Positions 22,003 to 42,610 of a stretch of DNA of 64,000 nucleotides are shown here, piece by piece. This DNA is from Rhynchopus sp. YZ270_cl-10. Taxonomy: Eukaryota > Euglenozoa > Diplonemea > Diplonemida > Diplonemidae. How positions within the stretch are numbered: the stretch's first letter is position 1; each line of letters begins with the position of its first letter. The notes beneath the pieces were generated by a model. That model was not told the origin of the DNA. It ran no database searches and saw nothing but the letters and a program-made list of their open reading frames with translations. The position numbers and the translations under genes were made by a program. The DNA lies in contig OZ037839.1 of NCBI GenBank assembly GCA_964035575.1, forward strand, positions 1,625,220 to 1,689,219, written 5' to 3'.

Positions 22003-22011
22003 CCCAATCCC

Positions 22012-22299: not shown

Positions 22300-22619
22300 C
22301 TACCTGTGTGTGACCGTACCCCAGATGGTCTGAAGAGTGATCTGACCATATTCTCCAGGTACAATATATACCCGGAGAATCCATTGGAGCAAGAATTTTG
22401 CACTTTTGAGCACCACAGATTACATGTTGCCATTTTTGCGGTCATAATATTTTTGCAAATGGCAAAGGCAATCCTTAAGGAATTACAGGGAAAACCACCG
22501 TTTTGGGTCTCTCTGTCTATGGGCGATTGGGTTTTAGTCACTCAACGAATCTGCTCGAATTTTTTTGTGTGTAGATAGGTTTTACCAGAAAAATCAATTA
22601 AAGCAAGAATTTTACGGTT
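22300..22619. other. Spacer before the LRR cluster
   Basis: No gene is recognised. A 93-codon open frame (22297-22578) has no detectable domain and is not shared with the other LRR loci. Confidence 0.5.
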
Positions 22620-24143
22620 TTGAATAGTTGTTCTTTATTTAAAAAAATACCCAGTTTGGACAAAAACTCAGGACCAAGTGTAAAAACGTTTATCGAAGCG
22701 AGGTTGGCAACTGTGAAGGATCCTGAGGTGGCTTCTCTGCTTCTTCAGGCGGAGGTTGCGACTGTTATTCCGACCTCGTTCTTGAGCGAAGCATCGTTTA
22801 CGAGACTTGATCTCTCTGCTGTGTCTGTTGTGACGCGAATTGAGCACGACTTCCTCTACGGGTGTGCGTCGGTGGAAACCGTTGACTTGTCGGCATTGTG
22901 CAACGTTACGCACATTGGGAATAACTGTCTCTCTTACAGCAAATCGTTGACAAGCCTTGACATGTCAGGGTTCACTGGTGTGACGGTGATACGGGAGTCG
23001 TTCCTCAAAGGAAGTGGCGTGACAGCGCTTGACTTATCCGCGATGACGAGTGTGACGGAGGTTGGTGCAGGCTTTCTTTACTCCTGCAAGTCGTTGGAAA
23101 GGATTGACATCTCAGGATGGCGCAGAGTCACGCACATTGAGAAGGACTTCTTCACGAACTGCACCTCGTTGGCAACGATTGATTTATCAGCTTTTTGCAG
23201 TGTCACCAATATCGGCTTCAGGTTTCTCTTCAACTGCAAGTCGTTGACCACCATCAGCTTTTCAGGGACGAATGTGACGGAAGTTGCGAGTCAATTTTGT
23301 AGGGCCTGCACCTCGTTGGAAACGATTGACTTGACAGCACTGCACAGAGTTGTGAAGGTAGGGTACAACTTTCTCTGGGGTTGCACCTCGCTGGGAAGTA
23401 TCGACCTACCAGGTTTTGCATCCATCGGGCCCAACTTTCTTTTTCAGTGCACATCATTGAAAACAGTTGATTTATCAGTGTTGTGCAGCATCACGCACAT
23501 TGAGCGTGGCTGGATGCAAGAGTGCTCCGCGTTGACAACAGCAGACTTCTCTGGACTGAGCAATGTTACGCAGATTGATGAACGTTTCCTGCAAGATTGC
23601 ACATCCTTGACTACGCTGGACATGTCAGGTTTTGGCAGGAATACAGAGATACAACACGACAGCCTGCTCAACTGCAACGCACTCACAACAGTCGTCTTGC
23701 CAGGCAACATCGACATTGACGAGATGTTGTCTCTCCCGAATGGAGACCCTAGAATGAGCACCTACAAGGAGGCCTTCTATGTACGTGTGCGTGAGATTTA
23801 CGCAAGGTTTACGGAACAGTTCGAAGATGTGCGGATAGAAGCTTTTGAGGCAGTACGAACAGACGTGTCTGGAGATGCAAGACAATGTATTGCATTGAAA
23901 GCAGGACAAGAACGAGAGAAGGGATTGATGCAAGCACAAGAGGACAACAAAGAGGAACAAAAAGAGGATTTGGAGAGTTGGGGGCAGCATAAACAGGAGC
24001 AGGACAAGCTGGATGAACAGAGGGGTTTGGGGGTTTTGTGCAGTTATGTTACGAATACTTCAGTCATAATATTCAACTTCAGTTTTGGATACACCTGTAA
24101 GCTCCTGATAAGGGTCTTATTTACACTTTCTCTCGCAAGATGA
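22620..24143 (+). CDS. LRR protein lacking the Ubl domain (family copy A)
   Basis: This copy belongs to the Ubl-LRR family described at 25907. The open frame encodes 507 residues, but homology begins only at about 22694, within the helical linker (EARLATV). The Ubl domain is replaced by some 25 unrelated residues. The LRRs follow in order; repeat 9 is shortened and repeat 7 has lost one residue. The conserved tail and a Glu/Lys/Gln-rich charged extension (QEDNKEEQKEDLE) come next. The last 40 residues are read-through into 3' flank. There is no clear splice acceptor at the start, so ATG 22620 is only the first in frame. The same upstream junction (from 22681) recurs in the broken copy at 45588. 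It may be a truncated gene or a pseudogene. Confidence 0.75.
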   Translation: MNSCSLFKKIPSLDKNSGPSVKTFIEARLATVKDPEVASLLLQAEVATVIPTSFLSEASFTRLDLSAVSVVTRIEHDFLYGCASVETVDLSALCNVTHIGNNCLSYSKSLTSLDMSGFTGVTVIRESFLKGSGVTALDLSAMTSVTEVGAGFLYSCKSLERIDISGWRRVTHIEKDFFTNCTSLATIDLSAFCSVTNIGFRFLFNCKSLTTISFSGTNVTEVASQFCRACTSLETIDLTALHRVVKVGYNFLWGCTSLGSIDLPGFASIGPNFLFQCTSLKTVDLSVLCSITHIERGWMQECSALTTADFSGLSNVTQIDERFLQDCTSLTTLDMSGFGRNTEIQHDSLLNCNALTTVVLPGNIDIDEMLSLPNGDPRMSTYKEAFYVRVREIYARFTEQFEDVRIEAFEAVRTDVSGDARQCIALKAGQEREKGLMQAQEDNKEEQKEDLESWGQHKQEQDKLDEQRGLGVLCSYVTNTSVIIFNFSFGYTCKLLIRVLFTLSLAR

Positions 24144-24422
24144 TGGGAAGACAATTCAAGCTTTGGTGCGGAGAGCTGTTTTGTGTAGTTTTGCATTCGG
24201 AATGGAACTAAGATATTCTGCCCACTACTTCCACAACCGTCTGCACAACCTACACCAGCAAACGCCCACAGAGCTGCACAACAGCCGGAAGGAATATTTT
24301 GGAATGTTTGATGCACAACGTGCGTGCACATCCCTTTTTATGAGCAACCTGTCAGCCCAAAGTCTTTTCTACTCCACATATTTGTCAGGGTGAGGATAAG
24401 TGAAAAACAAACAAGAACGCTA
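24144..24422. other. Intergenic spacer
   Basis: No gene is seen here. Its end, from about 24360, is homologous to the flanks upstream of the copies at 31828 and 37882, with the same run leading to the pyrimidine tract. Confidence 0.6.
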
Positions 24423-24476
24423 TTTTGTTGTATCTTGTCTCCTTCCTCCTCCTTCTCAACACTTACCCCACAACAG
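24423..24476 (+). promoter_or_regulatory. Polypyrimidine tract and 3' splice acceptor
   Basis: A C/T-rich tract ends in ACAG at 24476, 21 bases before ATG 24498. This decides the start of the gene and suits trans-splicing, or the 3' end of a leader intron. Confidence 0.7.
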
Positions 24477-24497
24477 AGCAACACTTCACTCGAAACA

Positions 24498-25616
24498 ATG
24501 GAACTGTGTGTGCAGGGATATGATGATGACACCAAATACGTGATTGAGGTGGGTGAGAACGACACAACGGAGACGATGCGGCAGAAGGTGGCGTCTGCAA
24601 CAGGGTTGTGCGAAGACAGCTTCCGCATGGGCTTCGGAGGGAAGGAGGAAGGAGAGGACATCACAGAACTGAGTGCTGGAGACACAGTCGTGTTGACGAA
24701 AACTACTAAGTACCAATCTGTTGAGCAACTTCGTGCCTTGGGTGAGACAGACATTTCCGAAGCGAGGTTGGCGACTGTGACGGATCCTGAGGTGGCTTCT
24801 CTGCTTCTTCAGGCGGAGGTTGCGACTGTTATTCCGAACTGGTTCTTGTACGAAGTATCGTTTACAAGACTTGATCTCTCTGCTGTGTCTGGCGTCACGC
24901 GAATTGAGCAAGGCTTCCTCTACGGGTGTGCGTCGGTGGAAACGGTTGACTTGTCGGGATTGTGCAACGTTACGCACATTGAGGATGACTTTCTCTCTTA
25001 CTGCCCATCGTTGAGAAGCCTTGACGTGTCAGGGTTCACTGGTGTGACGGTGATAGGGGATTCGTTCCTCCAAGGAAGTGGCGTCACAAATCTAGACTTA
25101 TCCGCGATGACGAGTGTGACGAAGGTTGGTACATACTTTCTTGCCTACTGCCAGTCGTTGGAAAGGATTGACATCTCAGGATGGCGCAGAGTCACGCACA
25201 TTGAGAACTGCTGGCTGCGAGAGTGCTCCGCGTTGACAACAGCAGACTTATCAGGAATGAGCAATGTTACGCAGATAAATGCAGATTTCCTGCTAGAGTG
25301 TACATCCTTGACCACGCTGGACATGTCAGGTTTTGGCAGGAACACAGAGATCCAGGACGACTTCCTGCACAACTGCAACTCACTCACAGCAGTCGTCTTG
25401 CCAGGCAACATCGACATTGACGAGATGTTGTCTCTCCCGAATGGAGACCCTAGAATGGGCACCTACGAGGAGGCCTTCTATGTACGTGTGCGTGAGATTT
25501 ACGCAAGGTTTACGGAACAGTTCGAAGATGTGCGGATAGAAGCTTTTGAGGCAGTGCGAACAGACGTGTCTGGAAGTGCAAGACAATGTATTGCACTGAA
25601 AGCAGGACCAAAATGA
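24498..25616 (+). CDS. Ubl-LRR protein, short form (family copy B)
   Basis: This codes for 372 residues, against 514 in the full-length copy at 25907. The Ubl domain (residues 1-70) and linker are intact. LRRs 1-4 are present, then a hybrid repeat that starts as LRR5 (GWRRVTHIEN) and ends as LRR10 (CWLREC), then LRRs 11 and 12. Five repeats have thus been removed exactly in register. The junction falls on the sequence CACGCACATTGAG, which LRR5 and LRR10 share, so unequal recombination is likely. The tail ends early, at KAGPK. The start was chosen at MELCVQ because the splice acceptor lies 21 bases before it; the upstream in-frame ATG at 24324 would be in the leader. Confidence 0.88.
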   Translation: MELCVQGYDDDTKYVIEVGENDTTETMRQKVASATGLCEDSFRMGFGGKEEGEDITELSAGDTVVLTKTTKYQSVEQLRALGETDISEARLATVTDPEVASLLLQAEVATVIPNWFLYEVSFTRLDLSAVSGVTRIEQGFLYGCASVETVDLSGLCNVTHIEDDFLSYCPSLRSLDVSGFTGVTVIGDSFLQGSGVTNLDLSAMTSVTKVGTYFLAYCQSLERIDISGWRRVTHIENCWLRECSALTTADLSGMSNVTQINADFLLECTSLTTLDMSGFGRNTEIQDDFLHNCNSLTAVVLPGNIDIDEMLSLPNGDPRMGTYEEAFYVRVREIYARFTEQFEDVRIEAFEAVRTDVSGSARQCIALKAGPK

Positions 25617-25831
25617 CAAACAAGAAGAGGATTTGGAGAGTTGGGGGCAGCATGAGCAGGAGCAGAACAAGCTGGATGAACCAAGAGGAGGGGATACAAC
25701 AGCCTCGTGGGCACACCGCTGACGCAACCTTTGAAGCGAGCAGCTAACAATCTTGGTTTTCCTTTTCACGTTTTTCAGTCTTTTGAGCAACAAATATGAG
25801 TAACGAGTCTCTCGAGCATGTTATCCCCCCA

Positions 25832-25885
25832 TTTTGTTGTATCTTGTCTCCCTCCTCCTCCTTCTCAACACTTACCCCACAACAG
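25832..25885 (+). promoter_or_regulatory. Polypyrimidine tract and 3' splice acceptor
   Basis: This is the same tract as at 24423 and ends in ACAG at 25885, 21 bases before ATG 25907. The flank before it (from about 25750) is shared with the copy at 36082, not with its nearer neighbours. Confidence 0.7.
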
Positions 25886-25906
25886 AGCAACACTTCACTC
25901 GAAACA

Positions 25907-27451
25907 ATGGAACTGTGTGTGCAGGGATATGATGATGAAACCAAATTCGTGATTGAGGTGGGTGAGAAGGACACAACGGAGACGATGCGGCAGAAGGTGG
26001 CGTCTGCAACAGGGTTGTGCGAAGACAGCTTCCGCATGGGCTTCGGAGGGAAGGAGGAAGGAGAGGACATCACAGAACTGAGTGCTGGAGACACAGTCGT
26101 GTTGACGAAAACTACTAAGTACGCATCTCTTGAAGCACTTCGTGCCTTGGGTGAGACAGACATTTCCGAAGCGAGGTTGGCGACTGTGAGGGATCCTGAG
26201 GTGGCTTCTCTGCTTCTTCAGGCGGAGGTTGCGACTGTTATTCCGAACTACTTCTTGGCGCAAGCATCGTTTACGAGACTTGATCTCTCTGCTGTGTCTG
26301 GTGTGACGCGAATTGAGCAAGGCTTCCTCTACAGGTGTGCGTCGGTGGAAACCGTTGACTTGTCGGGATTGTGCAACGTTACGCACATCTGGTGTAACTT
26401 TCTCTCTGAATGCACATCGTTGACAAGCCTTGACGTGTCAGGGGTCACTGGTGTGACGGTGATGGGGACCTCCTTCCTCAAAGGAAGTGGCGTCACAAAT
26501 CTTGACTTATCGGAGATGACGAGTGTGACGAAGGTTGGTGACTACTTCCTGTACCACTGCGTGTCGTTGGAAAGTCTTGACATCTCAGGATGGCGCAGAG
26601 TCACGCACATTCAGAACAACTTCCTCGAGAAATGCACCTCGTTGGCAACCATTGATTTATCAGCTTTTTGCAGTGTCACGAAGATCGGCACCTATTTTCT
26701 CTTCAACTGCTCGTCGTTGACCACCATCAGCTTTTCAGGGATGACGAATGTGACGGACATTGGGAACGGCTTTTGTTCGTCCTGCAAGTCGTTGGAAGCG
26801 ATTGACTTGACAGCACTGCACAGGGTTGTGAAGGTGGGTTACGGCTTTCTTTGGAGGTGCACCTCGCTGGGAAGTATCGACCTTTCAGCTTTCGGCAGTG
26901 TCGCAGTCATGGGTTCCGCGTTTCTTAGTCACTGTTCATCATTGAAAACAGTTGATTTATCAGTGTTGTGCAGCATAACACATATTGAGCGCGGCTGGAC
27001 GCAAGAGTGCTCCGCGTTGACAACAGCAGACTTATCAGGAATGAGCAATGTTACGCAGATAAATGCAGATTTCCTGCGAGAGTGCATATCCTTGACTACG
27101 CTGGACATGTCAGGTTTTGGCAGGGACACAGTGATCCAGGACGACTTCCTGCTCAACTGCAACGCACTCACAACAGTCGTCTTGCCAGGCAACATCGACA
27201 TTGACGAGATGTTGTCTCTCCCGAATGGAGACCCTAGAATGAGCACCTACAAGGAGGCCTTCTATGTACGTGTGCGTGAGATTTACGCAAGGTTTACGGA
27301 ACAGTTCGAAGATGTGCGGATAGAAGCTTTTGAGGTAGTACGAACAGACGTGTCTGGAAGTGCAAGACAATGTATTGCATTGAAAGCAGGACAACAACGA
27401 GAGAAGGGTTTGATGCAAGCAGAAGAGGAGGACAAGCAGGAGGATTTGTAG
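25907..27451 (+). CDS. Ubl-LRR protein, full-length (family copy C, reference)
   Basis: This encodes 514 residues. Residues 1-70 align with ubiquitin along their length (MELCVQ for MQIFVK, DTTETMRQKV for DTIENVKAKI, FGGKEEGED for FAGKQLEDG) but lack a C-terminal Gly-Gly, so it is a built-in Ubl domain, not a modifier. Residues about 72-111 form a helical linker (LRALGETDI, EARLATV, LLLQAEVATVIP). Twelve LRRs of 24-25 residues follow, with the pattern SLxxxDLSxxxxVTxIGxxFLxxC, the BspA/TpLRR (LRR_5) type, then a cap (VVLPGNIDIDE). The tail is helical (YVRVREIYARF, EQFEDVRIEAFE) and ends in a short acidic extension. No signal peptide or membrane segment is seen, so a cytosolic binding protein is likely. 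Function unknown; the variable xxFLxx residues suggest ligand recognition. Confidence 0.92.
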   Translation: MELCVQGYDDETKFVIEVGEKDTTETMRQKVASATGLCEDSFRMGFGGKEEGEDITELSAGDTVVLTKTTKYASLEALRALGETDISEARLATVRDPEVASLLLQAEVATVIPNYFLAQASFTRLDLSAVSGVTRIEQGFLYRCASVETVDLSGLCNVTHIWCNFLSECTSLTSLDVSGVTGVTVMGTSFLKGSGVTNLDLSEMTSVTKVGDYFLYHCVSLESLDISGWRRVTHIQNNFLEKCTSLATIDLSAFCSVTKIGTYFLFNCSSLTTISFSGMTNVTDIGNGFCSSCKSLEAIDLTALHRVVKVGYGFLWRCTSLGSIDLSAFGSVAVMGSAFLSHCSSLKTVDLSVLCSITHIERGWTQECSALTTADLSGMSNVTQINADFLRECISLTTLDMSGFGRDTVIQDDFLLNCNALTTVVLPGNIDIDEMLSLPNGDPRMSTYKEAFYVRVREIYARFTEQFEDVRIEAFEVVRTDVSGSARQCIALKAGQQREKGLMQAEEEDKQEDL

Positions 27452-27684
27452 ACAGCAGGATTGGGTTTGGGGCAGGACAAGCAGGAGCAGGGCAACACAA
27501 CGTTGCACTTCAGCTGCTACTTTATAATAAAAAAGTGGAGCACACTCTAAGGTGGCTGCACTAATACAACCAAGTTTGCAAGAAGGAGAAAACATTTCAA
27601 GGAAACTCAAGAGCACCACCCACCCACCCACCCGCGCTGTTTGCACTTTGAACCTCTGAGGCGGCACATGTGGAAGCGACATCT
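27452..27684. other. Spacer with (CCCA)n
   Basis: This spacer is partly like the downstream flanks of other family members. A short CCCA run lies at about 27608-27630. No gene is seen. Confidence 0.5.
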
Positions 27685-27955
27685 CACACCACGAAGGTGA
27701 CGGAAATCGGGAGCTGCTTTTGTAGGGCCTGCACCTCGTTGGAAACGATTGACTTGTCAGCACTGCACAGGGTTGTGAAGGCAGGTAACGACTTTCTTTG
27801 GAGGTGCACCTCGCTGGGAAGTATTGACCTTTCAGCTTTCGGCAGTACCACAAGCGTTGGGTTCGGCTTTATTATTGACTGCTCATCACTGAAAACAGTT
27901 GATTTATCAGTGTTGCGCGGCCTCATAAACATTATCCACGTCTGGATGAGATCCT
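27685..27955 (+). pseudogene. LRR family fragment (repeats 7-10)
   Basis: This is an isolated fragment of about 270 bp matching the middle of the Ubl-LRR genes: the end of LRR7 (EIGSCFCRAC), LRR8, LRR9 and the start of LRR10 (VDLSVLRG). It has no Ubl domain, linker or tail, and runs into T- and G-rich unrelated sequence after 27960. An open frame from 27670 covers it, but no acceptor or proper start is visible. It is probably a relic of recombination. Confidence 0.8.
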
Positions 27956-28762
27956 CCACTCAGCGGAGGATATTTCCTTCAGGGGTGTTTTATTTTTTTT
28001 TTGGGGGGGGCGTTTTTAAAACCAGGGTATTAGGGTGCAATCCAAATGAACAAGATAAAACAAAAAAGCTTGCGTTTCTTTTATCGAACAGATTTTATTC
28101 TCCGACCCGTACCCAAAACGTAAACACCACTTTGAATCAGAAATAATATTTTCTTTTCTTTTTTCTTCCACACGCGCTTGGTTTTTGTGTTTCATTAATT
28201 ATTATCAAAAAGCTTTCGACGCAAAACGTTTCCCCATGTATTGCACGGGAAACAATATATATGACAAACAGGTGCAGGGTGGTTCCGTGCATATCATAGA
28301 ACCCGGCACCTTGTGTGTCTTCCAAAAACCAAAAGCGTTGTGTGTGAAGTTTTGAAGGAAGGAAAAATAAAATTTTTTGACAAAAACTGGGTTTTCTGGG
28401 TTTCTCTCCTGGGTGACGAAAACTAGTGTTTCTGGAGAAAACCTCCACCGTTGACGGACAGTCACCTGAACCTAGCCCCACGTCTGCCAGCAACACCCAC
28501 AGACAGAGCCTGATGCAGGAGGTGTGGGTGTGGCATCAGTGGTTGAGGTGCCACCATTGTCCGAGGGGCTCTTCACACTCGTCAAGGGGGACGGGACGTC
28601 GCATCTCGTTGAGTTGTGTTGTTGATGGTGGGGTGGAGGGGAAGGGGCAGTACTATGTTCTTGTCTCGCAGGGAGATGGTCACCGTTTATCTCACGGTAG
28701 TCTCAAAGCGTTGTTTCCCTTTGGTTCAATCCTGATTAGTGAGGGCGTAGTGTGATCTGGTG
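27956..28762. other. Spacer before the ankyrin gene
   Basis: This stretch has homopolymer T and G runs near 27990-28010 and AT-rich sequence to about 28380. From 28430 to 28760 the base composition is more coding-like and one frame is open for 109 codons, but I recognise no domain and no acceptor. An old gene fragment is possible. Confidence 0.45.
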
Positions 28763-28797
28763 CAACTTTCTCACCCTTTATTTGTGTACATTTTCAG
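28763..28797 (+). promoter_or_regulatory. Pyrimidine tract and acceptor of the ankyrin gene
   Basis: A T/C-rich tract ends in TTTTCAG at 28797, 19 bases before ATG 28817. The TTTTCAGGAGAACTCACAAC around the AG is also present inside each ankyrin repeat unit, so the acceptor seems to be derived from coding repeat sequence. Confidence 0.6.
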
Positions 28798-28816
28798 GAG
28801 AACTCACAACACAACA

Positions 28817-31180
28817 ATGATGAAGTTGGTCGCAACTGTGAAGAAATTGTTCAAAGCAGGTGCGGATGTACGTGACACAGATGCGCAAGGAAACACGTGT
28901 CTTATCCGTGCAGCGTATCAGGGACACACCGATACTGTGCGCTATCTTGTTAGCTTGCCGGAGGTGGACCTGAATCACGAAGGCAGCTACAACTACACTG
29001 CGTTGCACTTTGCTGTGGACAGAAAACATGCAGACGTGGTGCAGGTGCTCATTGATGCAGGGGCAGACATTGACACAAAGAATGATAAAGGACGCTCGCC
29101 TCTGCACTTTGCTAGCTTTTCAGGAGAAGTCACGAATATGAAGATGTTGGTCGAGGCAGGTGCGGATGTACGTGCCACAGACTACGATGGCAACACGTGT
29201 CTCATCCGTGCAGCGTATTTTGGACACACCGATGCTGTGCGCTATCTTCTGAGCTTGCCGGAGGTGGACCTGAATCACCAAGGCAGCCACAACTACACTG
29301 CGTTGCACCAGGCTGTACAGGAAAAACATGTAGACGTGGTGCAGGTGCTCATTGATGCAGGGGCAGACACTGAGACAAGGAATGATGAAGGACACTCGCC
29401 TCTGCACTTGGCTAGCTTTTCAGGAGAACTCACAACTGTGAAGATGTTGGTCGAGGCAGGTGCGGATGTGCGTGTCACAGAAGCCGAAGGAAACACGTGT
29501 CTCATCCGTGCAGCGTATCAGGGACACACCGATACTGTGCGTTATCTTGTTAGCTTGCCGGAGGTGGACCTGAATCACCAAGGCAGCTACAACTACACTG
29601 CGTTGCACCATGCTGTACAGGAAAAACATGCAGACGTGGTGCAGGTGCTCATTGATGCAGGGGCAGACATTGAGACAAAGAATGATGACGGACGCTCGCC
29701 TCTGCATGTGGCTAGCTTTTCAGGAGAACTCACAACTGTGAAGATGTTGGTCAAAGCAGGTGCGGATGTACGTGCCACAGACGCCGAAGGAAACACGTGT
29801 CTTATCCTTGCAGCGTGTTGTGGACACACCGATACTGTGCGCTATCTTGTTAGCTTGCCGGAGGTGGACCTGAATCACGAAGGCAACAGGAACAGCACTG
29901 CGTTGCACCATGCTGTACGGGAAAAACATGCCGACGTGGTGCAGGTGCTCATTGATGCAGGGGCAGACATTGACACAAAGAATGATGACGGACGCTCGCC
30001 TCTGCACGTGGCTAGCTTTTCAGGAGAACTCACAACTGTGAAAATGTTGGTCGAGGCAGGTGCGGATGTACGTGCCACAGACGCCGAAGGAAACACGTGT
30101 CTCATCCGTGCAGCGTATTTTGGACACACCGATGCTGTGCGCTATCTTGTGAGCTTGCTGGAGATGGCCCTGAATCACGAAGGCAGCAGGAACAGCACTG
30201 CGTTGCACCGTGCTGTGGTAAGAAATCATGCAGACGTGGTGCAGGTGCTCATTGATGCAGGGGCAGACACTGAGACATGGAATGATGAAGGACACTCGCC
30301 TCTGCACTTGGCTAGCTTTTCAGGAGAACTCACAACTGTGAAGATATTGGTCGAGGCAGGTGCGGATGTACGTGCCACAGACGCCGAAGGAAACACGTGT
30401 CTTATCCGTGCAGCGTATCAGGGACACACCGATACTGTGCGCTATCTTGTTAGCTTGCCGGAGGTGGACCTGAAGCACCAAGGCAGCAGGAACAGCACTG
30501 CGTTGCACTTTGCCGTACAGGAAAAACATGCAGACGTGGTGCAGGTGCTCATTGATGCAGGGGCAGACATTGAGACAAGGAATGATGACGGGCACTCGCC
30601 TCTGCACGTGGCTAGCATTTTAGGAGAACTCACAACTGTGAAGATGTTGGTCAAAGCAGGTGCGGATGTACGTGCCACAGACACCAGAAGAGACACGTGT
30701 CTTCTCCTTGCAGCGTGTCATGGACACATCGATACTGTGCGCTATCTCGTTAGCTTGCCGGAGGTGGACCTGAAGCACGAAGGCAGCTACAACCACACTG
30801 CGTTGCACTTTGCTGTGGACAGAAAACATGCAGACGTGGTGCAGGTGCTCATTGATGCAGGGGCAGACACTGAGACATGGAATGATGAAGGACACTCGCC
30901 TCTGCACTTGGCTAGCTTTTCAGGAGAACTCACAACTGTGAAGATATTGGTCGAGGCAGGTGCGGATGTACGTGCCACAGACGCCGAAGGAAACACGTGT
31001 CTTATCCGTGCAGCGTATCAGGGACACACCGATACTGTGCGCTATCTTGTTAGCTTGCCGGAGGTGGACCTGAAGCACGAAGGCAGCTACAACCACACTG
31101 CGTTGCACTTTGCTGTGGACAGAAAACATGCAGACGTGGTGCAGGTGCTCATTGATGCAGGGGCAGACACTGAGCGTTAG
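28817..31180 (+). CDS. Ankyrin repeat protein, about 23 repeats
   Basis: This encodes 787 residues made almost wholly of ankyrin repeats. The motifs GHTDTVRYLVSL, TALHxAVxxKHADVVQVLI and SPLHxASFSGELTTVKMLV recur in turn. Three ankyrin repeats form one 100-residue (300-bp) unit, and these follow each other about 7.7 times with very high DNA identity, so the array has grown recently by tandem duplication. No Ubl domain, signal peptide or enzyme domain is seen. The start follows the acceptor; MM at 28817 is preferred over the upstream ATG at 28760. The frame stops inside a unit (GADTER), and the next bases look like a decayed continuation, so the C-terminus may be secondarily shortened. Ankyrin stacks bind other proteins; the partner is unknown. 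Confidence 0.92.
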   Translation: MMKLVATVKKLFKAGADVRDTDAQGNTCLIRAAYQGHTDTVRYLVSLPEVDLNHEGSYNYTALHFAVDRKHADVVQVLIDAGADIDTKNDKGRSPLHFASFSGEVTNMKMLVEAGADVRATDYDGNTCLIRAAYFGHTDAVRYLLSLPEVDLNHQGSHNYTALHQAVQEKHVDVVQVLIDAGADTETRNDEGHSPLHLASFSGELTTVKMLVEAGADVRVTEAEGNTCLIRAAYQGHTDTVRYLVSLPEVDLNHQGSYNYTALHHAVQEKHADVVQVLIDAGADIETKNDDGRSPLHVASFSGELTTVKMLVKAGADVRATDAEGNTCLILAACCGHTDTVRYLVSLPEVDLNHEGNRNSTALHHAVREKHADVVQVLIDAGADIDTKNDDGRSPLHVASFSGELTTVKMLVEAGADVRATDAEGNTCLIRAAYFGHTDAVRYLVSLLEMALNHEGSRNSTALHRAVVRNHADVVQVLIDAGADTETWNDEGHSPLHLASFSGELTTVKILVEAGADVRATDAEGNTCLIRAAYQGHTDTVRYLVSLPEVDLKHQGSRNSTALHFAVQEKHADVVQVLIDAGADIETRNDDGHSPLHVASILGELTTVKMLVKAGADVRATDTRRDTCLLLAACHGHIDTVRYLVSLPEVDLKHEGSYNHTALHFAVDRKHADVVQVLIDAGADTETWNDEGHSPLHLASFSGELTTVKILVEAGADVRATDAEGNTCLIRAAYQGHTDTVRYLVSLPEVDLKHEGSYNHTALHFAVDRKHADVVQVLIDAGADTER
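28855..31180 (+). repeat. 300-bp coding tandem repeat
   Basis: The unit start (GCAGGTGCGGATGT) recurs at about 300-bp steps from 28857 to 30957. Units differ mainly at a few codons, including the residue pair after RAAY or LAAC and the words after NLNH or DLKH. Confidence 0.9.
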
Positions 31181-31442
31181 AACAATGCCGGACATTCTCC
31201 TTAAGTTGCGCCATTCTTGTGTGCAGCTTCGTTGGAGTTGTCTTTTCATTCCTGTAAACTGAGTTTCCTTTAGGATCCCTTCAGGAGCATGCCTACCTAC
31301 CTTTACGGTCGACAATGCATTGTTCCGCATGGTGCTGCTGTTGGATGCAGACAGAATGAGAGTTTTTGATTAAGTCGAGAAAGGCAAAAGGTCCGCCCCC
31401 CATTGCCCCTGCCGCTACTGCGCTCCTGGAGCGCTACTTAGT
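31181..31442. other. Decayed repeat end and spacer
   Basis: The first 30 bases after the ankyrin stop resemble the interior of the 300-bp unit but are diverged. The rest has no recognised gene. A GCGCTCC/GGAGCGC palindrome lies near 31420. Confidence 0.5.
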
Positions 31443-31724
31443 TTGCTGCAAGCACAAGAGGACAAAAAAGAGGAACAAAAAGAGGATTTGGAGAGTTGGG
31501 GGCAGCATAAACAGGAGCAGGACAAGCTGGATGAACAGAGGGGTTTGGGGGGTTTGGTGTTTTGTGTGAACACTTCGCTGAACCTATTGAACTGCATTTT
31601 TGGATTCACTTTTGAGCTGGGGTGGAATATTTGGCAGGTTTGGTGCACAACTCTGACAAGACGGAGTGTCCCACCACTTTTTGTGAAAAACGTGTCAGTC
31701 CAGGGTCTTTTCTACCACACATAG
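31443..31724 (+). pseudogene. 3' end fragment of an LRR family gene
   Basis: From 31446 the sequence matches the charged tail extension and downstream flank of the family (QAQEDKKEEQKEDLE, GQHKQEQDKLDEQR), as in the copies at 22620 and 36082. Nothing of the LRR region remains. The following flank to 31827 is nearly the same as that between 37560 and 37881, so the pair arose by one duplication. Confidence 0.75.
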
Positions 31725-31752
31725 TTAAGTGAAAAACAAACAAGAAAGCTAT

Positions 31753-31806
31753 TTTGTTGTATCTTGCCTCCCCTCCTCCTCCTTCTCAACACTTTCCCCA
31801 CAACAG
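31753..31806 (+). promoter_or_regulatory. Polypyrimidine tract and 3' splice acceptor
   Basis: The family tract ends in ACAG at 31806, 21 bases before ATG 31828. Confidence 0.7.
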
Positions 31807-31827
31807 AGCAACACTTCACTCGAAACA

Positions 31828-33183
31828 ATGGAACTGTGTGTGCAGGGATATGATGATGAAACCAAATTCGTGATTGAGGTGGGTGAGAAGGACACAACGG
31901 AGACGATGCGGCAGAAGGTGGCGTCTGCAACAGGGTTGTGCGAAGACAGCTTCCGCATGGGCTTCGGAGGGAAGGAGGAAGGAGAGGACATCACAGAACT
32001 GAGTGCTGGAGACACAGTCGTGTTGACGAAAACTACTAAGTACCTATCTGTTGAGGAACTTCGTGCCTTGGGTGAGACAGACATTTCCGAAGCGAGGTTG
32101 GCGACTGTGAAGGATCCTGAGGTGGCTTCTCTGCTTCTTCAGGCGGAGGTTGCGACTGTTATTCCGACCTCGTTCTTGATCGAAGCATCGTTTACGAGAC
32201 TTGATCTCTCTGCTGTGTCTGGTGTGACGCGAATTGAGCAAGGCTTCCTCTACGGGTGTGCGTCGGTGGAAACCGTTGACTTGTCGGGATTGTGCAACGT
32301 TACGCACATCGGGTGTAACTTTCTCTCTGAATGCACATCGTTGACAAGCCTTGACGTGTCAGGGTTCACTGGTGTGACGGTGATAGGGAACGCGTTCCTC
32401 CATGAAAGTGGCGTCACAGCGCTTGACTTATCCGCGATGACGAGCGTGACGAAGGTTGGTGACTACTTCCTGTACCACTGCGTGTCGTTGCAAAGTCTTG
32501 ACATCTCAGGATGGCGCAGAGTCACGCACATTCAGAACAACTTCCTCGAGAAATGCACCTCGTTGGCAACGATTGATTTATCAGCTTTTTGCAGTGTCAC
32601 GAAGATCGGCACCGCCTTTCTCTTCAACTGCAAGTCGTTGACCACCATCAGCTTTTCAGGGATGACGAATGTGACGGACATTGGGCACAGCTTTTGTAGG
32701 ATCTGCACCTCGTTGGAAACGATTGACTTATCTGCACTGCACAGGGTTGTGAAGGTGGGTTTCGGCTTTCTTTGGAGGTGCACCTCGCTGGGAAGTGTCG
32801 ACCTTTCAGCTTTCGGCAGCGCCACACACGTTGGCCACGGCTTTCTTAGTCACTGTTCATCATTGAAAACAGTTGATTTATCAGTGTTGCGCACCATCAA
32901 GCGCATTGAGCCAAGCTGGATACAAGGGTGCTCCGCGTTGACAACAGCAGACTTATCAGGACTGAGCAATGTTCAGCAGATTGGTGAACATTTCCTGCAA
33001 GGGTGCACATCGTTGACCACGCTGGACATATCAGGTATAGGGGAGACGATGATCGGCGACGACTTCCTGCGCAACTTACCTAGCAACATCGACATTCGCG
33101 AGACGTCAAAAGAGGACCACAGCATGCTGCAGCGTGCCCCTGTACCCATGTGTGTGTGCGTGTTATGTGAGCGCAAGGGGTAG
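31828..33183 (+). CDS. Ubl-LRR protein with altered tail (family copy G)
   Basis: This encodes 451 residues. The Ubl domain, linker and LRRs 1-11 are complete and close to the copy at 25907. LRR12 is shortened (TTLDISGIGETMIG) and the cap is reduced to SNIDIRE. The usual helical tail is then replaced by about 35 unrelated residues ending in CVCVLCERKG. Just after the stop, at about 33200, sequence matching the normal tail (SGDARQCIALKAG) resumes in another frame, so the tail was lost by a local rearrangement. Variable residues include TS..IE at repeat 1, GC..SE at repeat 3 and DY..YH at repeat 5; repeats 5 and 6 are identical in choice to those of the 25907 copy, which suggests gene conversion. 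Confidence 0.88.
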   Translation: MELCVQGYDDETKFVIEVGEKDTTETMRQKVASATGLCEDSFRMGFGGKEEGEDITELSAGDTVVLTKTTKYLSVEELRALGETDISEARLATVKDPEVASLLLQAEVATVIPTSFLIEASFTRLDLSAVSGVTRIEQGFLYGCASVETVDLSGLCNVTHIGCNFLSECTSLTSLDVSGFTGVTVIGNAFLHESGVTALDLSAMTSVTKVGDYFLYHCVSLQSLDISGWRRVTHIQNNFLEKCTSLATIDLSAFCSVTKIGTAFLFNCKSLTTISFSGMTNVTDIGHSFCRICTSLETIDLSALHRVVKVGFGFLWRCTSLGSVDLSAFGSATHVGHGFLSHCSSLKTVDLSVLRTIKRIEPSWIQGCSALTTADLSGLSNVQQIGEHFLQGCTSLTTLDISGIGETMIGDDFLRNLPSNIDIRETSKEDHSMLQRAPVPMCVCVLCERKG

Positions 33184-34286
33184 AACCCTTTCAGGCAGCA
33201 CGACAAGACGTGTCTGGAGATGCAAGACAATGTATTGCATTGAAAGCAGGACAAGAAGGAGAAGGGATTGATGCAAGCACAAGAGGGCGACTACAAAAAA
33301 GCTGCTTCAGAGGGTATTGTGCAGGACAAACAGGACCTGGACGAGCAGGACAAGCAGGAGGATTAGGAGGATATGGTGCGGGGCAAACAGGAGCAGGACG
33401 AACGGGTTTGGTGCAGGACTGAGAGGAGCTGGGCAGGCAGGAGTATTTGGAGGGATTGGTTAGCAGAAGGCATTTCATGAGCATTTGGAGGGTTTGGTGA
33501 TTTGTGTGAAGAACACTTCGGTGAAAATATGGAACTCTATTTTTGGATACACCTGTGAGCTCTTGGGGGTAGGGGAATCGAAGCAACGCGTATGACGTGG
33601 GTACGTACCAACTAAACAATAACGGGGTGAAGAACGGGATTTTTATTGCTCTCTTTTTGTGAGAAGGCTGCAAAACTAACCAAAATATAATTTGTTCAGC
33701 CTTTTCGATTGATTTTATTTTTATTAGGACAAATACTTTGTGGTAAATGATTAAAACATCTGAGACTTGTCGTTTATTCCCTTACCCTATTATTGTGCAC
33801 TCACCTCATTTCTGTACTTCAGGCTAAGGGTTTTTCCCCTTTTGACATCCTTTTCTGGACGTTGTGGGGGTACAAAAAAAAACGCGAAGCAACGCGAAGC
33901 AACGCGAAGCAACGCGAAGCAACGCGAAGCAACGCGAAGCAACGCGAAGCAACGCGTATGACGTGGGTAGCGTACCCACTGCACAAAAGACGAGAAGGGG
34001 TTTATATATTTGTGTTCCTGTCTATCTGATACACAAACAGGATGTGGCCGATATTTGTTTGGATTGGTAGCTTTCCGTATACACTGCTGCCAAGCCTCTG
34101 TAGGTGCATATCCTGTGAGACAGAGATTCTGAGAGAAAGGGAAAGGAAGAATAAAGCGTTTGTATTTTGTGTATTCCGTAACCAAAAAAAACTGAAGTAG
34201 AAGGTACCAAATGTTCACACGAACATCAATTTGACGACAATTCACCCACCATCTAAAGGGAAATCACTGAAGATGTCCACTTTCAT
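33184..34286. other. Spacer with decayed tail and a 10-bp array
   Basis: The first 250 bases carry the displaced family tail and a Gly/Gln-rich extension in a broken frame. AT-rich sequence without a gene follows to 33880. A 10-bp array lies at 33881-33950. The remainder to 34286 shows no recognisable gene. Confidence 0.6.
33881..33956. repeat. (AACGCGAAGC)n, 7 copies
   Basis: Seven perfect 10-bp units end in AACGCG and run into ATGACGTGGGTA. The same junction, one unit followed by ATGACGTGGGTA, occurs alone at about 33579-33609. That single copy may be the unexpanded ancestor of the array. Confidence 0.95.
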
Positions 34287-34339
34287 TTTGTTGTATCTTG
34301 CCCCCCTCCTCCTCCTTCTCAACACTTACCCCACAACAG
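34287..34339 (+). promoter_or_regulatory. Polypyrimidine tract and 3' splice acceptor
   Basis: The family tract ends in ACAG at 34339, 21 bases before ATG 34361. The flank further upstream is unlike that of the other copies. Confidence 0.7.
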
Positions 34340-34360
34340 AGCAACACTTCACTCGAAACA

Positions 34361-35890
34361 ATGGAACTGTGTGTGCAGGGATATGATGATGAAACCAAAT
34401 TCGTGATTGAGGTGGGTGAGAACGACACAACGGAGACGATGCGGCAGAAGGTGGCGTCTGCAACAGGGTTGTGCGAAGACAGCTTCCGCATGGGCTTCGG
34501 AGGGAAGGAGGAAGGAGAGGACATCACAGAACTGAGTGCTGGAGACACAGTCGTGTTGACGAAAACTACTAAGTACCTATCTGTTGAGCAACTTCGTGCC
34601 TTGGGTGAGACAGACATTTCCGAAGCGAGGTTGGCGACTGTGACGGATCCTGAGGTGGCTTCTCTGCTTCTTCAGGCGGAGGTTGCGACTGTTATTCCGT
34701 ACGAGTTCTTGAGCAGATCATCGTTTACGAGACTTGATTTCTCTGCTGTGTCTGGTGTGACGCGAATTGAGGACCGCTTCCTCTACGGGTGTGCGTCGGT
34801 GGAAACCGTTGACTTGTCGGGATTGTGCAATGTTACGCATATTGGGGATGAGTGTCTCTCTCACTGTACATCGTTGAGAAGCCTTGACGTGTCAGGGTTT
34901 ACTGGTGTGACGGTGATCGGGAAGGCGTTCCTCCAAGGAAGTGGCGTTACAAAGCTTGACTTATCCGCGATGATGAGTGTGACGAAGGTTGGTAGAAGCT
35001 TTCTTTTCCAGTGCAAATCGTTGGATAGTCTTGACATCTCAGGATGGCGCAGAGTCACGCACATTGAGAACGGCTTCCTCACGAACTGCACCTCGTTGGC
35101 AACCATTGATTTATCAGCTTTTTGCAGTGTCACGAAGATCGACTCACAATTTCTCTTGAACTGCTCGTCGTTGACCACCATCAGCTTTTCAGGGATGACC
35201 AATGTGACGGAAATCGGGAACGAATTTTGTACGGACTGCACCTCGTTGGAAACGATTGACTTGACAGCACTGCACAGGGTTGTGAAGGTGGGGGACGACT
35301 TTCTTTGGGGCTGCACCTCGCTGGGAAGTATCGACCTCTCAGCTTTTGGGAGTACCACAGGCGTTGGGCACAGCTTTCTTTTTCAGTGTTCATCATTAAC
35401 AACAGTTGATTTATCAGTGTTGCGCAGCATCACACACATTGAGCCAAGGTGGGTGGAAGGGTGCTCCGCGTTGACAACAGCAGACTTATCAGGAATGAGC
35501 AATGTTCAGCAGATTGATGACCATTTCCTGCAAGGGTGCACATCCTTGACCACGTTGGACATGTCAGGTTTTGGCAGGAACACAGAGATACAACACTACT
35601 TCCTGCACAACTGCAACGCACTCACAACAGTCATCTTGCCAGGCAACATCGACATTGACGACATCTCCATCCCGTATGAATCTGGTTTTGCCAGAAGCGA
35701 GGCCTTCTACGAACGTGTGCATGAGATTTACGCAAGGTTTACGGAAGACTTCGAAGATGTGCGGATAGAAGCTTTTGAGGCAGTACGAACAGACGTGTCT
35801 GGAAGTGCAAGACAATGTATTGCATTGAAAGCAGGACATAGATTTGCTGGTGTGCGTTGTGTTTGTGATGCTACTTTGGGGGTTCTTTGA
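34361..35890 (+). CDS. Ubl-LRR protein, full-length (family copy H)
   Basis: This encodes 509 residues with the Ubl domain, linker, all 12 LRRs, cap and helical tail. It differs from the reference copy mostly at the xxFLxx positions: YE..SR in repeat 1, DR in repeat 2, GDEC in repeat 3, RS..FQ in repeat 5, EN-G in repeat 6 and SQ..LN in repeat 7. The cap and first part of the tail are also distinct (IDDISIPYESGFARSEAFYERVHE), resembling the copy at 46143-46770 rather than its neighbours. After IALKAG the end is unique (HRFAGVRC). This copy looks intact. Confidence 0.92.
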   Translation: MELCVQGYDDETKFVIEVGENDTTETMRQKVASATGLCEDSFRMGFGGKEEGEDITELSAGDTVVLTKTTKYLSVEQLRALGETDISEARLATVTDPEVASLLLQAEVATVIPYEFLSRSSFTRLDFSAVSGVTRIEDRFLYGCASVETVDLSGLCNVTHIGDECLSHCTSLRSLDVSGFTGVTVIGKAFLQGSGVTKLDLSAMMSVTKVGRSFLFQCKSLDSLDISGWRRVTHIENGFLTNCTSLATIDLSAFCSVTKIDSQFLLNCSSLTTISFSGMTNVTEIGNEFCTDCTSLETIDLTALHRVVKVGDDFLWGCTSLGSIDLSAFGSTTGVGHSFLFQCSSLTTVDLSVLRSITHIEPRWVEGCSALTTADLSGMSNVQQIDDHFLQGCTSLTTLDMSGFGRNTEIQHYFLHNCNALTTVILPGNIDIDDISIPYESGFARSEAFYERVHEIYARFTEDFEDVRIEAFEAVRTDVSGSARQCIALKAGHRFAGVRCVCDATLGVL

Positions 35891-36007
35891 GAGAGTTAGT
35901 GTTCACCCTTTTTCAAGCTTTTGTGCGTCTATTTTCCTTTTCACGTTTTGCAGTCTTTTGAGCAACAAATAAGAGTAACGAGTCTCTCGAGCATGTTATC
36001 CCCCCAT
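35891..36007. other. Short intergenic flank shared with copy C
   Basis: From about 35935 the flank matches that upstream of 25907 (TTTTGAGCAACAAATA and on), showing a shared duplication unit. No gene is seen. Confidence 0.6.
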
Positions 36008-36060
36008 TTTGTTGTATCTTGCCTCCCTCCTCCTCCTTCTCAACACTTACCCCACAACAG
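36008..36060 (+). promoter_or_regulatory. Polypyrimidine tract and 3' splice acceptor
   Basis: The family tract ends in ACAG at 36060, 21 bases before ATG 36082. Confidence 0.7.
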
Positions 36061-36081
36061 AGCAACACTTCACTCGAAACA

Positions 36082-37563
36082 ATGGAACTGTGTGTGCAGG
36101 GATATGATGATGAAACCAAATACGTGATTGAGGTGGGTGAGAAGGACACAACGGAGACGATGCGGCAGAAGGTGGCGTCTGCAACAGGGTTGTGCGAAGA
36201 CAGCTTCCGCATGGGCTTCGGAGGGAAGGAGGAAGGAGAGGACATCACAGAACTGAGTGCTGGAGACACAGTCGTGTTGACGAAAACTACTAAGTACCAA
36301 TCTGTTGAGGAACTTCGTGCCTTGGGTGAGACAGACATTTCCGAAGCGAGGTTGGCGACTGTGGAGGATCCTGAGGTGGCTTCTCTGCTTCTTCAGGCGG
36401 AGGTTGCGACTGTTATTCCGAACTGGTTCTTGAGCGAAGCATCATTTACGAGACTTGATTTCTCTGCTGTGTCTGGTGTGACGCGAATTGAGCAAGGCTT
36501 CCTCTACGGGTGTGCGTCGGTGGAAACCGTTGACTTGTCGGGATTGTGCAACGTTACGCACATTGGGGACAACTGTCTCTATGAGTGCACATCGTTGACA
36601 AGTCTTGACGTGTCAGGGTTCACTGGTGTGACGGTGATAGGGAAGGCGTTCCTCCAAGGAAGTGGCGTTACAAATCTTGACTTATCCGCGATGACGAGCG
36701 TGACGACGGTTGGTAGGGACTTTCTTGCCGACTGCAATTCGTTGGAAAGGATTGACATCTCAGGATGGCGCAGAGTCACGCACATTGAGAACAACTTCCT
36801 GTCGAACTGCACCTCGTTGGCAACGATTGATTTATCAGCTTTTTGCAGTGTCACGAAGATCGGCTTCGAGTTTCTCTTCAACTGCTCGTCGTTGACCACC
36901 ATCAGCTTTTCAGGGATGAACAATGTGACGGACATTGGGAACAGCTTTTGTTGGGCCTGCACCTCGTTGGAAACGATTGACTTGACAGCACTGCACAGGG
37001 TTGTGAAGGTGGGTTCTGGCATCGGGACCAACTTTCTTTTTGAGTGCTCATCATTGAAAACAGTTGATTTATCAGTGTTGCGCAATATCACACACATTGG
37101 GCCAGTCTGGATGGAAGGGTGTTCCTCGTTGACAACAGCAGACTTCTCAGGACTGAGCAATGTTACGCAGATTGAGAGTGGTTTCCTGAAAGATTGCACA
37201 TCCTTGACTACGCTGGACATATCAGGTATAGGCAGGAACACAGAGATCCATCGCCGCTTCCTGATCAACTGCAACGCACTCACAACAGTCGTCTTGCCAG
37301 GCAACATCGACATTGACGAGATGTTGTCTCTCCCGAATGGAGACCCTAGAATGAGCACCTACAAGGAGGCCTTCTATGTACGTGTGCGTGAGATTTACGC
37401 AAGGTTTACAGAAAAGTTCGAAGATGTGCGGATAGAAGCTTTTGAGGCAGTACGAACAGACGTGTCTGGAGATGCAAGACAATGTATTGCATTGAAAGCA
37501 GGACAAGAGAGAGGGAAAAAAAGAGGAACAAAAAGAGGATTTGGAGAGTTGGGGGCAGCATAA
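36082..37563 (+). CDS. Ubl-LRR protein missing one repeat (family copy I)
   Basis: This encodes 493 residues. The Ubl domain, linker and most LRRs are intact. Repeats 8 and 9 are fused by a deletion of about one repeat (KVGSGIGTNFLFEC), keeping the frame and the repeat spacing. The helical tail is normal to IALKAGQER. A small length change in a purine run near 37510 then sends the charged extension into another frame, giving a basic end (KKRGTKRGFGELGAA). The copy at 46143-46770 ends in the same basic frame, so this alternative tail is shared by at least two members. Confidence 0.9.
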   Translation: MELCVQGYDDETKYVIEVGEKDTTETMRQKVASATGLCEDSFRMGFGGKEEGEDITELSAGDTVVLTKTTKYQSVEELRALGETDISEARLATVEDPEVASLLLQAEVATVIPNWFLSEASFTRLDFSAVSGVTRIEQGFLYGCASVETVDLSGLCNVTHIGDNCLYECTSLTSLDVSGFTGVTVIGKAFLQGSGVTNLDLSAMTSVTTVGRDFLADCNSLERIDISGWRRVTHIENNFLSNCTSLATIDLSAFCSVTKIGFEFLFNCSSLTTISFSGMNNVTDIGNSFCWACTSLETIDLTALHRVVKVGSGIGTNFLFECSSLKTVDLSVLRNITHIGPVWMEGCSSLTTADFSGLSNVTQIESGFLKDCTSLTTLDISGIGRNTEIHRRFLINCNALTTVVLPGNIDIDEMLSLPNGDPRMSTYKEAFYVRVREIYARFTEKFEDVRIEAFEAVRTDVSGDARQCIALKAGQERGKKRGTKRGFGELGAA

Positions 37564-37807
37564 ACAGGAGTAGGACAAGCTGGATGAACAGAGGGGTTTG
37601 GGGGGTTTGGTGTTTTGTGTGAAGAACACTTCGGTTAAAATATCAACTTCATATTTGGATTCACTTTTGAGCTGGGGTGGAATATTTGGCAGGTTTGGTG
37701 CACAACTCTGACAAGACGGAGTGTCCCACCACTTTTTGTGAACAACGTGTCTGCCCAGGGTCTTTTCTACCACACATAGTTAAGTGAAAAACAAACAAGA
37801 AAGCTAT

Positions 37808-37860
37808 TTTGTTGTATCTTGCCTCCCTCCTCCTCCTTCTCAACACTTACCCCAAAACAG
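37808..37860 (+). promoter_or_regulatory. Polypyrimidine tract and 3' splice acceptor
   Basis: The family tract ends in ACAG at 37860, 21 bases before ATG 37882. Confidence 0.65.
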
Positions 37861-37881
37861 AGCAACACTTCACTCGAAACA

Positions 37882-38262
37882 ATGGAACTGTGTGTGCAGG
37901 GATATGATGATGACACCAAATTCGTGATTGAGGTGGGTGAGAAGGACACAACGGAGACGATGCGGCAGAAGGTGGCGTCTGCAACAGGGTTGTGCGAAGA
38001 CAGCTTCCGCATGGGCTTCGGAGGGAAGGAGGAAGGAGAGGACATCACAGAACTGAGTGCTGGAGACACAGTCGTGTTGACGAAAAATACTAAGTACCAA
38101 TCTGTTGAGGAACTTCGTGCCTTGGGTGAGACAGACATTTCCGAAGCGAGGTTGGCGACTCCCGACGGCGGACCGCCCCCCATAGCACATTTTTGCGGTG
38201 CACGGGCGTACGGGATTACTAGGGGATGGCTAGCTACCATGAACCCCTGTCCAAAGTATTAA
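37882..38262 (+). pseudogene. Ubl domain with LRR part replaced (family copy J)
   Basis: The frame encodes 126 residues. The Ubl domain (1-70) and the first half of the linker are intact up to EARLAT; at 38160/38161 the family sequence stops abruptly and unrelated sequence follows (PDGGPPPIAHF). No LRR is found downstream; the 122-bp tandem repeat lies beyond. It could make a free Ubl-linker protein, but more likely it is a copy cut by rearrangement. Confidence 0.75.

Positions 38263-42578: not shown

Positions 42579-42610
<32 letters not shown>

Follow-up and report, generated by a model that had tools for sequence, protein, structure and literature searches.

The window analysed here is a stretch of 64,000 bases from the diplonemid Rhynchopus sp. 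YZ270_cl-10 (contig 7 of a 152.4-Mb genome in 126 contigs, bases 1,625,220-1,689,219). It carries a cluster of leucine-rich repeat (LRR) genes that are members of a large family with a ubiquitin-like (UBL) N-terminal domain. The paralogs vary at the same codons of nearly every repeat, the two residues on either side of an FL pair, and at these codons amino-acid change stands far above silent change, which gives good support to diversifying selection as opposed to drift. This pattern is read most economically as a recognition repertoire. We favour, with a probability of about 60%, a large germline repertoire of intracellular binding proteins recognising changing non-self, of which binding, a role in defence and a coupling to the ubiquitin system are presumed parts.

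Domain layout and register of variability

The repeat arrays belong to the BspA/TpLRR solenoid fold: PF13306 (LRR_5, BspA-type) matches copies F, C and E of the window (Table 1) with 107.2, 94.7 and 112.9 bits, respectively, against a cut-off of 27.7. The N-terminal domain matches PF00240 in nine of 12 family members at E<=0.01 (best 8.8e-10), the other three giving no match, and ubiquitin chains head the PDB list obtained with the family's domain profile. This domain has no C-terminal di-glycine and continues into KYxSVE..LRALGE (no GG); it appears from its sequence to be a fused domain and not a conjugated modifier. A Pfam scan of copies F, C and E gave no NB-ARC/NACHT domain, and no F-box/BTB match was found among these three proteins.

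An exact motif of the UBL domain, ATGGGNTTYGGNGGNAAR (MGFGGK), occurs 355 times genome-wide, against nine matches for a reversed-pattern control, while the family count from the N-terminal query is a lower bound only, 150 of 5249 candidates having been scored. The window subfamily is nearly limited to contig 7, which holds 63 of the 73 matches of a C-terminal query, and separate subfamilies are carried by other contigs. Among the 100 of 355 motif matches listed, those on contig 3 occupy the minus strand as far as 1.10 Mb and switch to the plus strand from 1.29 Mb onwards, an order resembling genomes whose genes run one way over long arrays. No viral relative was confirmed when IMG/VR was scanned twice with profiles of the family (40 and 11 pattern matches, 0 confirmed); the viral proteins nearest in structure belong to the BspA type or to other LRR proteins. 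A literature search of open-licence papers found none on this family, which is weak evidence for novelty. The MGFGGK codons are letter-identical (ATGGGCTTCGGAGGGAAG) in 97 of the 100 listed matches (contigs C1, C3, and C4; 355 in total), and silent sites of the UBL domain are thus conserved on contigs whose subfamilies are only ~65-70% alike in protein.

The original prediction placed the variability at the two residues before and the two after FL, and an alignment of 49 near-full-length paralogs bears this out for nearly every repeat. The alignment, drawn from 59 open reading frame entries, has 1255 columns, of which the 521 with an occupancy of at least 60% were used. Eleven repeat slots were counted; two more, at residues 114 and 188 of copy C, vary as well but fell outside the motif rule. 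The variable set comprises 44 columns among 299 repeat columns, positions 20, 21, 24, and 25 of the repeat (IG-xx-FL-xx-C). In copy C, this register returns about every 25 codons. The mean entropy of the 44 columns is 2.44 bits, against 0.69 bits averaged over shifted registers and 1.72 bits for the best shift. By position, over the 11 slots, it is 2.49 (20), 2.74 (21), 2.38 (24), and 2.15 bits (25), with the F and L between the pairs at 0.28 and 0.25 bits and moderate variation also at positions 2 (1.19 bits), 17 (1.06), and 19 (1.17). None of 100,000 random sets of 44 columns reached the observed mean (largest 1.43 bits), which excludes chance. Differences are not spread evenly along the repeats, since 34 of the 44 most variable repeat columns fall in the xx-FL-xx register; a few register sites are nearly fixed, such as the last site of the last slot (N in 47 of 49 copies). 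Between copies A-F of the window, 66% of variable residues differ.

The pattern is largely repeated in four groups from other contigs (L071, L073, L074, and L075+L076, with 20, 21, 16, and 39 repeats), in a test that took only repeats of exactly 25 residues between two cysteines and in which L072, with four such repeats, went unscored. Positions 20, 21, 24, 25, and 2 are all among the seven most variable in L074 and L075+L076; the exceptions are position 24 in L071 and position 20 in L073, and positions 17 and 13 also rank high.

In a structure model of copy C, read through its DSSP states only, the concave strand lies at register positions 6-8 (10 of 13 repeats) and a second short strand at 17-18. 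Positions 20, 21, 25, and 2 are found in loops, and position 24 in a bridge in three of 13 repeats. The variable positions would thus form a stripe on the face that runs from the second strand to the concave strand that follows. Concave-strand positions 6, 8, and 10 are nearly fixed (0.63, 0.13, and 0.11 bits). The variable residues are probably exposed, as their composition also suggests: V, P, I, and L stand at 0.08-0.31 of expectation, and polar residues and Y are enriched.

Replacement and silent change at the variable codons

Fourfold silent sites were taken from codons with matching first two bases and compared with codon bases 1 and 2; gene pairs being non-independent, these comparisons are descriptions and not p-values. 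Among the 49 paralogs, bases 1 and 2 of variable codons differ in 49.5% of comparisons. Fourfold silent differences amount to 9.5% in the framework (11168/117198) versus 11.3% at variable codons (418/3715), the latter figure scattering between 14.4% and 5.5% in two disjoint halves of the set. The ratio of replacement-type to silent change at variable codons is 5.2 raw and 7.9 corrected. The corrected ratio is 6.3 in the six window copies, 8.5 and 7.4 in two disjoint halves, and 9.9 in seven copies without the UBL domain. In copies A-F, bases 1 and 2 differ in 40.5% of comparisons at variable codons and 7.1% in the framework, where fourfold silent differences reach 8.7% (130/1488). The third base of variable codons is mostly slot-specific, and bases 1 and 2 are scrambled, near saturation at many sites, as results from many replacement changes over few silent ones. 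At residue 24 of slot 286, for instance, all 43 codons are NNG and encode nine residues.

The absence of a silent rise at variable codons depends on the measure used. By the Nei-Gojobori method, the 44 variable codons have a proportion of nonsynonymous differences (pN) of 0.46 and a proportion of synonymous differences (pS) of 0.24, against 0.086 and 0.13 for the framework; pN/pS is only 1.93 at variable codons, with 0.68 in the framework. Because this method averages over paths, codons in which two or three bases have changed are credited with silent steps; we take the silent rise to be an effect of this averaging, to which a modest rise in mutation may contribute. A parsimony count on a framework tree gives nonsynonymous to synonymous rate ratios (dN/dS) of 2.62 at variable codons, 2.92 at position 2, and 0.72 in the framework, with p<0.01 in 12 of 44 variable codons versus six of 477 others. 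In the same count, silent changes per silent site are 4.67 at variable codons versus 2.81 in the framework. The tree-based ratio of 2.62 lies below the pairwise one, and recombination, which makes any single tree wrong, distorts both.

A neutral dN/dS, which would have undone the proposal of diversification, was not found. Neutral drift of unconstrained exposed loops beside a conserved framework would agree with the constraint on that framework (dN/dS 0.72). Drift, however, cannot outrun the silent rate, and replacement-type change is five (raw) to eight (corrected) times the silent level; the composition of the variable residues is also far from neutral. Drift was thus rejected on replacement versus silent change, is contradicted unless silent sites are strongly constrained, and deserves hardly any weight.

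A dedicated mutator or retro-copying process that rewrites bases 1 and 2 of the variable codons, like diversity-generating retroelements, would suit the fixed, slot-specific third bases next to near-saturated first and second ones, as at slot 286. It would also suit the 53 gene pairs with 4-6% framework divergence, in which 68% of variable residues differ on average, half of them through codons that are two or three bases apart. Y/R differences at the third base of NAN codons (19%) are less frequent than differences at the first base (47%), a bias that fits selection for larger changes and leaves some room for a phase-aware process. A phase-blind process, in contrast, would raise fourfold silent change, which is not raised at variable codons, though the two other, less suitable counts rise modestly; phase-blind hypermutation is disfavoured on this ground. 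Adenine-directed mutagenesis is at odds with two variable codons at which 44 of 47 and 45 of 49 copies retain A as the third base; no search was aimed at a template or a reverse transcriptase. As selection predicts, NAN codons also have a raised level of third-base replacement (0.169 versus 0.080 for silent transversions in fourfold boxes). Furthermore, the closest pairs differ at five of 43 variable residues (3.9% framework divergence) and seven of 44 (4.4%), most others at more than half, so that change is not uniformly fast. Altogether, a mutator is improbable.

Exchange between copies is a further source to be weighed. Copies that lie farther apart on a contig tend to have more distant frameworks (rho 0.37), as expected from local duplication. 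Similarity at one slot is almost unrelated to that at another (r 0.02-0.08), and the copies are therefore either finely mosaic or independently changed many times. The reassortment of pre-made LRR cassettes, as in the assembly of variable lymphocyte receptors (VLRs), with copies lacking the UBL domain as silent donors, would produce such a fine-mosaic look; copies C and D have identical variable residues in two adjacent slots, and nine copies without the domain share one junction. Cassettes should, however, yield recurring linked haplotypes, whereas 390 distinct tetrapeptides occur in 488 repeats and only five recur at another slot. Linkage is loose even within a repeat, where 12 bases separate the left pair of residues from the right: two genes agree in the right pair in 25% of cases if they agree in the left, and in 11% overall. 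Cassette assembly is hence improbable. Gene conversion over long tracts was also considered as the only origin of the diversity and does not account for all of it: among 13 pairs chosen from 986 compared, pairs such as g32/g37 differ at variable codons of most slots, and not in blocks alone, while their framework has changed little.

The nine entries mentioned start, with minor changes, at the junction ...TTTTTAAAAACGTTTATCGAAGCGAGG, and five further entries without the UBL domain lack this junction. Upstream of the junction, a block is 97.6-100% identical over 420-1092 bases among seven entries, within the flanks compared; in g4 the identity is 93% over 59 bases, and g38 (copy A) shares the last bases only. 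This leader is a repeated element: the best 40 of 176 candidates are all 100% identical over 119 bases, on nine contigs, and the matches listed on contigs 3, 4, 5, and 21 are ordered minus on the left and plus on the right. It extends over at least 0.4-1.1 kb ahead of LRR copies without the UBL domain, among them copy H and the family open reading frames at C42:685474 (L045) and C53:1053795 (L056). Behind the near-identical leader, 76% of variable residues differ on average (seven alignable copies); in the closest leader-bearing pair, g32/g37, 50% differ while the leader is 99.8% identical. Either the arrays have been repeatedly overwritten by exchange with other paralogs, or the leader has been homogenised. 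Such diverse arrays behind one leader are the basis of the donor-archive idea presented below.

A putative recognition repertoire and its genomic setting

In the favoured reading, a conserved N-terminal UBL domain would be joined to a rigid BspA/TpLRR-type solenoid and a subfamily-specific C-terminus. The four residues per repeat around a presumably buried FL pair, with the weaker position 2, would make up a continuous target-contacting stripe, mostly of loops. Ordinary point mutations, strongly selected for diversity, and exchange among paralogs would drive duplicates apart, each gene giving the common scaffold a surface of its own. Such a repertoire would most likely serve to recognise viral or bacterial proteins inside the cell, with the UBL domain as a common docking part. 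Of the diversifying recognition repertoire proposed in the original prediction, the diversifying selection at fixed codons stands, in 49 copies and largely in the four other groups; recognition is the part that these patterns suggest.

By hydropathy, no hydrophobic N-terminus is present in any of 38 full-length copies (within the first 40 residues, the best Kyte-Doolittle mean over 10 residues is 1.21). The C-termini of 24 proteins from other groups comprise 11 CAAX-like ones of the C-x-x-M/S type (CVCM, CSVS, CVVS), which we take to be prenylation motifs, nine KR-rich tails, presumably nuclear signals, and four of neither kind. These sequence features point to the cytosol, the inner face of a membrane, or the nucleus, and the UBL domain together with the missing hydrophobic N-terminus makes a surface receptor unlikely. 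Antigenic variation of a surface coat under immune pressure, as in parasites, would be in line with large families in a lineage known for variable coats. The same two features and the KR-rich tails in nine of 24 relatives make it very improbable.

Several observations count against the favoured reading. Besides the low pN/pS, the silent rise in two counts, and the low tree-based ratio given above, several family copies are truncated or broken, and the copies without the UBL domain are as variable as the others, so that the domain is not needed for the pattern. An Ile44-type hydrophobic patch is the usual docking surface of proteasome-docking UBL proteins. The residue aligned to ubiquitin Ile44 is S in L006, and in 12 aligned rows that share the MxF context it is S, G, or E; the family therefore lacks this patch, which weakens the case for proteasome coupling. 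A hydropathy of 1.6 over 19 residues is the usual limit for membrane segments, and nine of the 38 copies exceed it (maximum 1.73), the most hydrophobic stretch starting at residue 97-98 in eight of them, a helix before the repeats in the model. Finally, one CAAX-bearing Entamoeba BspA protein is reported at the surface in the cited part of PMC2843621, and a C-terminal CAAX is thus no proof of an intracellular protein.

The same proteins under the same selection could also have self or kin as a partner, in allorecognition, in mating compatibility, or with co-evolving endogenous clients. Hundreds of paralogs in one genome would exceed the usual need of a compatibility locus, and this alternative is unlikely, though pathogen and kin as drivers are not separated by the present data. 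It has a parallel in fungal incompatibility repeat proteins, for which the text consulted of PMC4986451 describes diversifying selection on four positions per repeat.

The favoured reading can be extended, tentatively and with a clear lean towards doubt, to hundreds of UBL-LRR adapters forming an inborn, antibody-like intracellular repertoire of a euglenozoan. Each stripe would count up to ~50 variable loop-face residues, foreign proteins caught by it would be passed to a common UBL docking step, and copies that lack the docking domain and follow a common mobile leader might be a donor archive refreshing the expressed genes. The recognition of viruses and bacteria by single-celled eukaryotes is largely open, and here one genome holds many natural variants on one scaffold. 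Within a subfamily, these differ mainly at presumed contact residues, which would give a direct entry to binding partners and make the family a ready-made library of LRR binders. The combination of a UBL domain with hypervariable LRRs suggests a mechanism testable with few proteins.

The family copies named in the original prediction were all found in place, and the residues quoted for them agree with the translations: TSFLSE, NWFLYE, NYFLAQ, and YEFLSR in repeat 1, GNNC, EDDF, WCNF, and GDEC in repeat 3, and AG..YS, TY..AY, DY..YH, RS..FQ, and RD..AD in repeat 5. Corrections are needed for copy A and for 45491-46770, which lack the N-terminal domain, for copy B, short of five repeats, and for copy D, with its aberrant C-terminus; the truncated copy G and the fragment after copy C are additions to that list. 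Their DNA, described as nearly identical, is so in the sense of ~91-93%, given the framework differences of copies A-F cited above.

Table 1. Family members and related features in the window
Feature	Position	Strand	Remarks
Copy A, LRR array without UBL domain	22602..24143	+	Family homology from ~22692, directly after common junction ...TAAAAACGTTTATCGAAGCGAGG
Copy B, UBL domain and LRR array, 372 residues	24498..25616	+	Array five repeats shorter
Copy C, complete, 514 residues	25907..27451	+	13 repeats flanked by UBL and C-terminal domains; used for the structure model
UBL domain of copy C, residues 1-72	25907..26122	+	PF00240 24.9 bits versus cut-off 25.4
First variable block of copy C	26246..26263	+	Register example, AAC TAC [TTC TTG] GCG CAA = NY-FL-AQ
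Family repeat fragment	27652..28146	+	Without N-terminal domain
Copy D, UBL domain and LRR array	31828..33183	+	Unrelated sequence in place of C-terminal domain
Copy E, UBL domain, LRR array, C-terminal domain, 509 residues	34361..35890	+	
Copy F, UBL domain, LRR array, C-terminal domain, 493 residues	36082..37563	+	21 residues of the array (~one repeat) missing
Copy G, truncated	37882..38262	+	UBL domain, then soon unrelated sequence
Copy H, broken, without UBL domain	45491..46770	+	Two frames (45491-46228, 46093-46770), after repeated leader element
Divergent relative	54798..55994	+	~50% identity, xx-FL-xx layout kept, most of C-terminal domain absent

The genome itself shows a euglenozoan signature: the paraflagellar-rod family PF05149, to our knowledge restricted to Euglenozoa, has 30 matches, against none in 14 control genomes. 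Several rod genes lie in pieces separated by 0.06-0.33 kb, which suggests introns. Ubiquitin-system genes are found near the cluster at 41876-44065 and 49438-53982 (a UCH-type deubiquitinase with a PQQ-rich stretch, and a MIB/HERC2 + RING protein). An ankyrin-repeat gene at 28760-31180, between copies C and D, consists of about eight 300-bp units that are 90% alike, their differences clustering at few residues (seven units compared). Tandem arrays occupy 1-20728 (51 copies of a 406-bp unit with 99% matches, truncated at the start of the window) and 38794-41583 (122-bp unit, 23 copies). At 21721-22298, the microsatellites CTGTA x56 and CTGTGTATA x32 adjoin each other, and L072 holds, between family genes, a longer array with the same translations.

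Comparison with known systems

Nematode and plant F-box and MATH-BTB ubiquitin-ligase adapters couple a conserved ubiquitin-system domain to a fast-evolving target-binding domain. The present family differs from them in having, in the three proteins scanned, a UBL domain in place of F-box/BTB. It shares with lamprey VLRs an LRR solenoid with variable residues at fixed positions. The likeness to VLRs drawn in the original prediction does not extend to the face used: the concave positions 6, 8, and 10 are nearly invariant, and the variable positions 20, 21, 24, and 25 lie outside the 6-8 strand in the model, mostly in loops; VLR-type concave binding is rejected on this register. In VLRs, according to the portion of PMC3900441 cited here, variability is mainly on the concave surface. 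The family's genes are moreover germline genes, and their products have no hydrophobic N-terminus.

The BspA-like, TpLRR-type (LRR_5) families of Trichomonas vaginalis and Entamoeba belong to the same LRR class and are likewise very large paralogous families. As far as the cited text of PMC2843621 goes, some Entamoeba members end in CAAX, while in Trichomonas members with a transmembrane segment the LRRs are inferred to be outside the cell and none has a CAAX box. They differ from the present family in that the word ubiquitin is absent from the main text of that paper and that codon-exact variability is not described in the part cited. The FNIP/FGxxFN LRRs of Cafeteria roenbergensis virus and Dictyostelium are another large protist and giant-virus LRR family, whose most variable pair lies on an edge, beside a largely conserved concave face (PMC9525666, in the part consulted). 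These repeats have another consensus and another Pfam family, and the variability described in that part is across repeats, with no selection test on paralogs.

A parallel in design is given by the HNWD/NLR-like proteins of Podospora and other fungi, intracellular repeat scaffolds that are likewise under selection at fixed repeat positions. In HNWD-type proteins, diversifying selection acts on four fixed positions per WD repeat (PMC4986451, in the text cited). The fungal proteins of that account combine WD, ANK, or TPR repeats with NACHT/NB-ARC, without LRR motifs, and their repeats are homogenised. The present family has, in contrast, LRRs with slot-specific frameworks, a UBL domain, and no NOD domain in the three proteins scanned. 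Homogenisation of repeats within a gene is not observed in the window subfamily, whose slots keep their own framework and a mostly slot-specific third base (49 genes); other subfamilies, such as L007, look more homogenised. By the features tested, the family is thus neither HNWD, VLR, nor NLR, and it resembles the fungal repeat receptors in its working principle.

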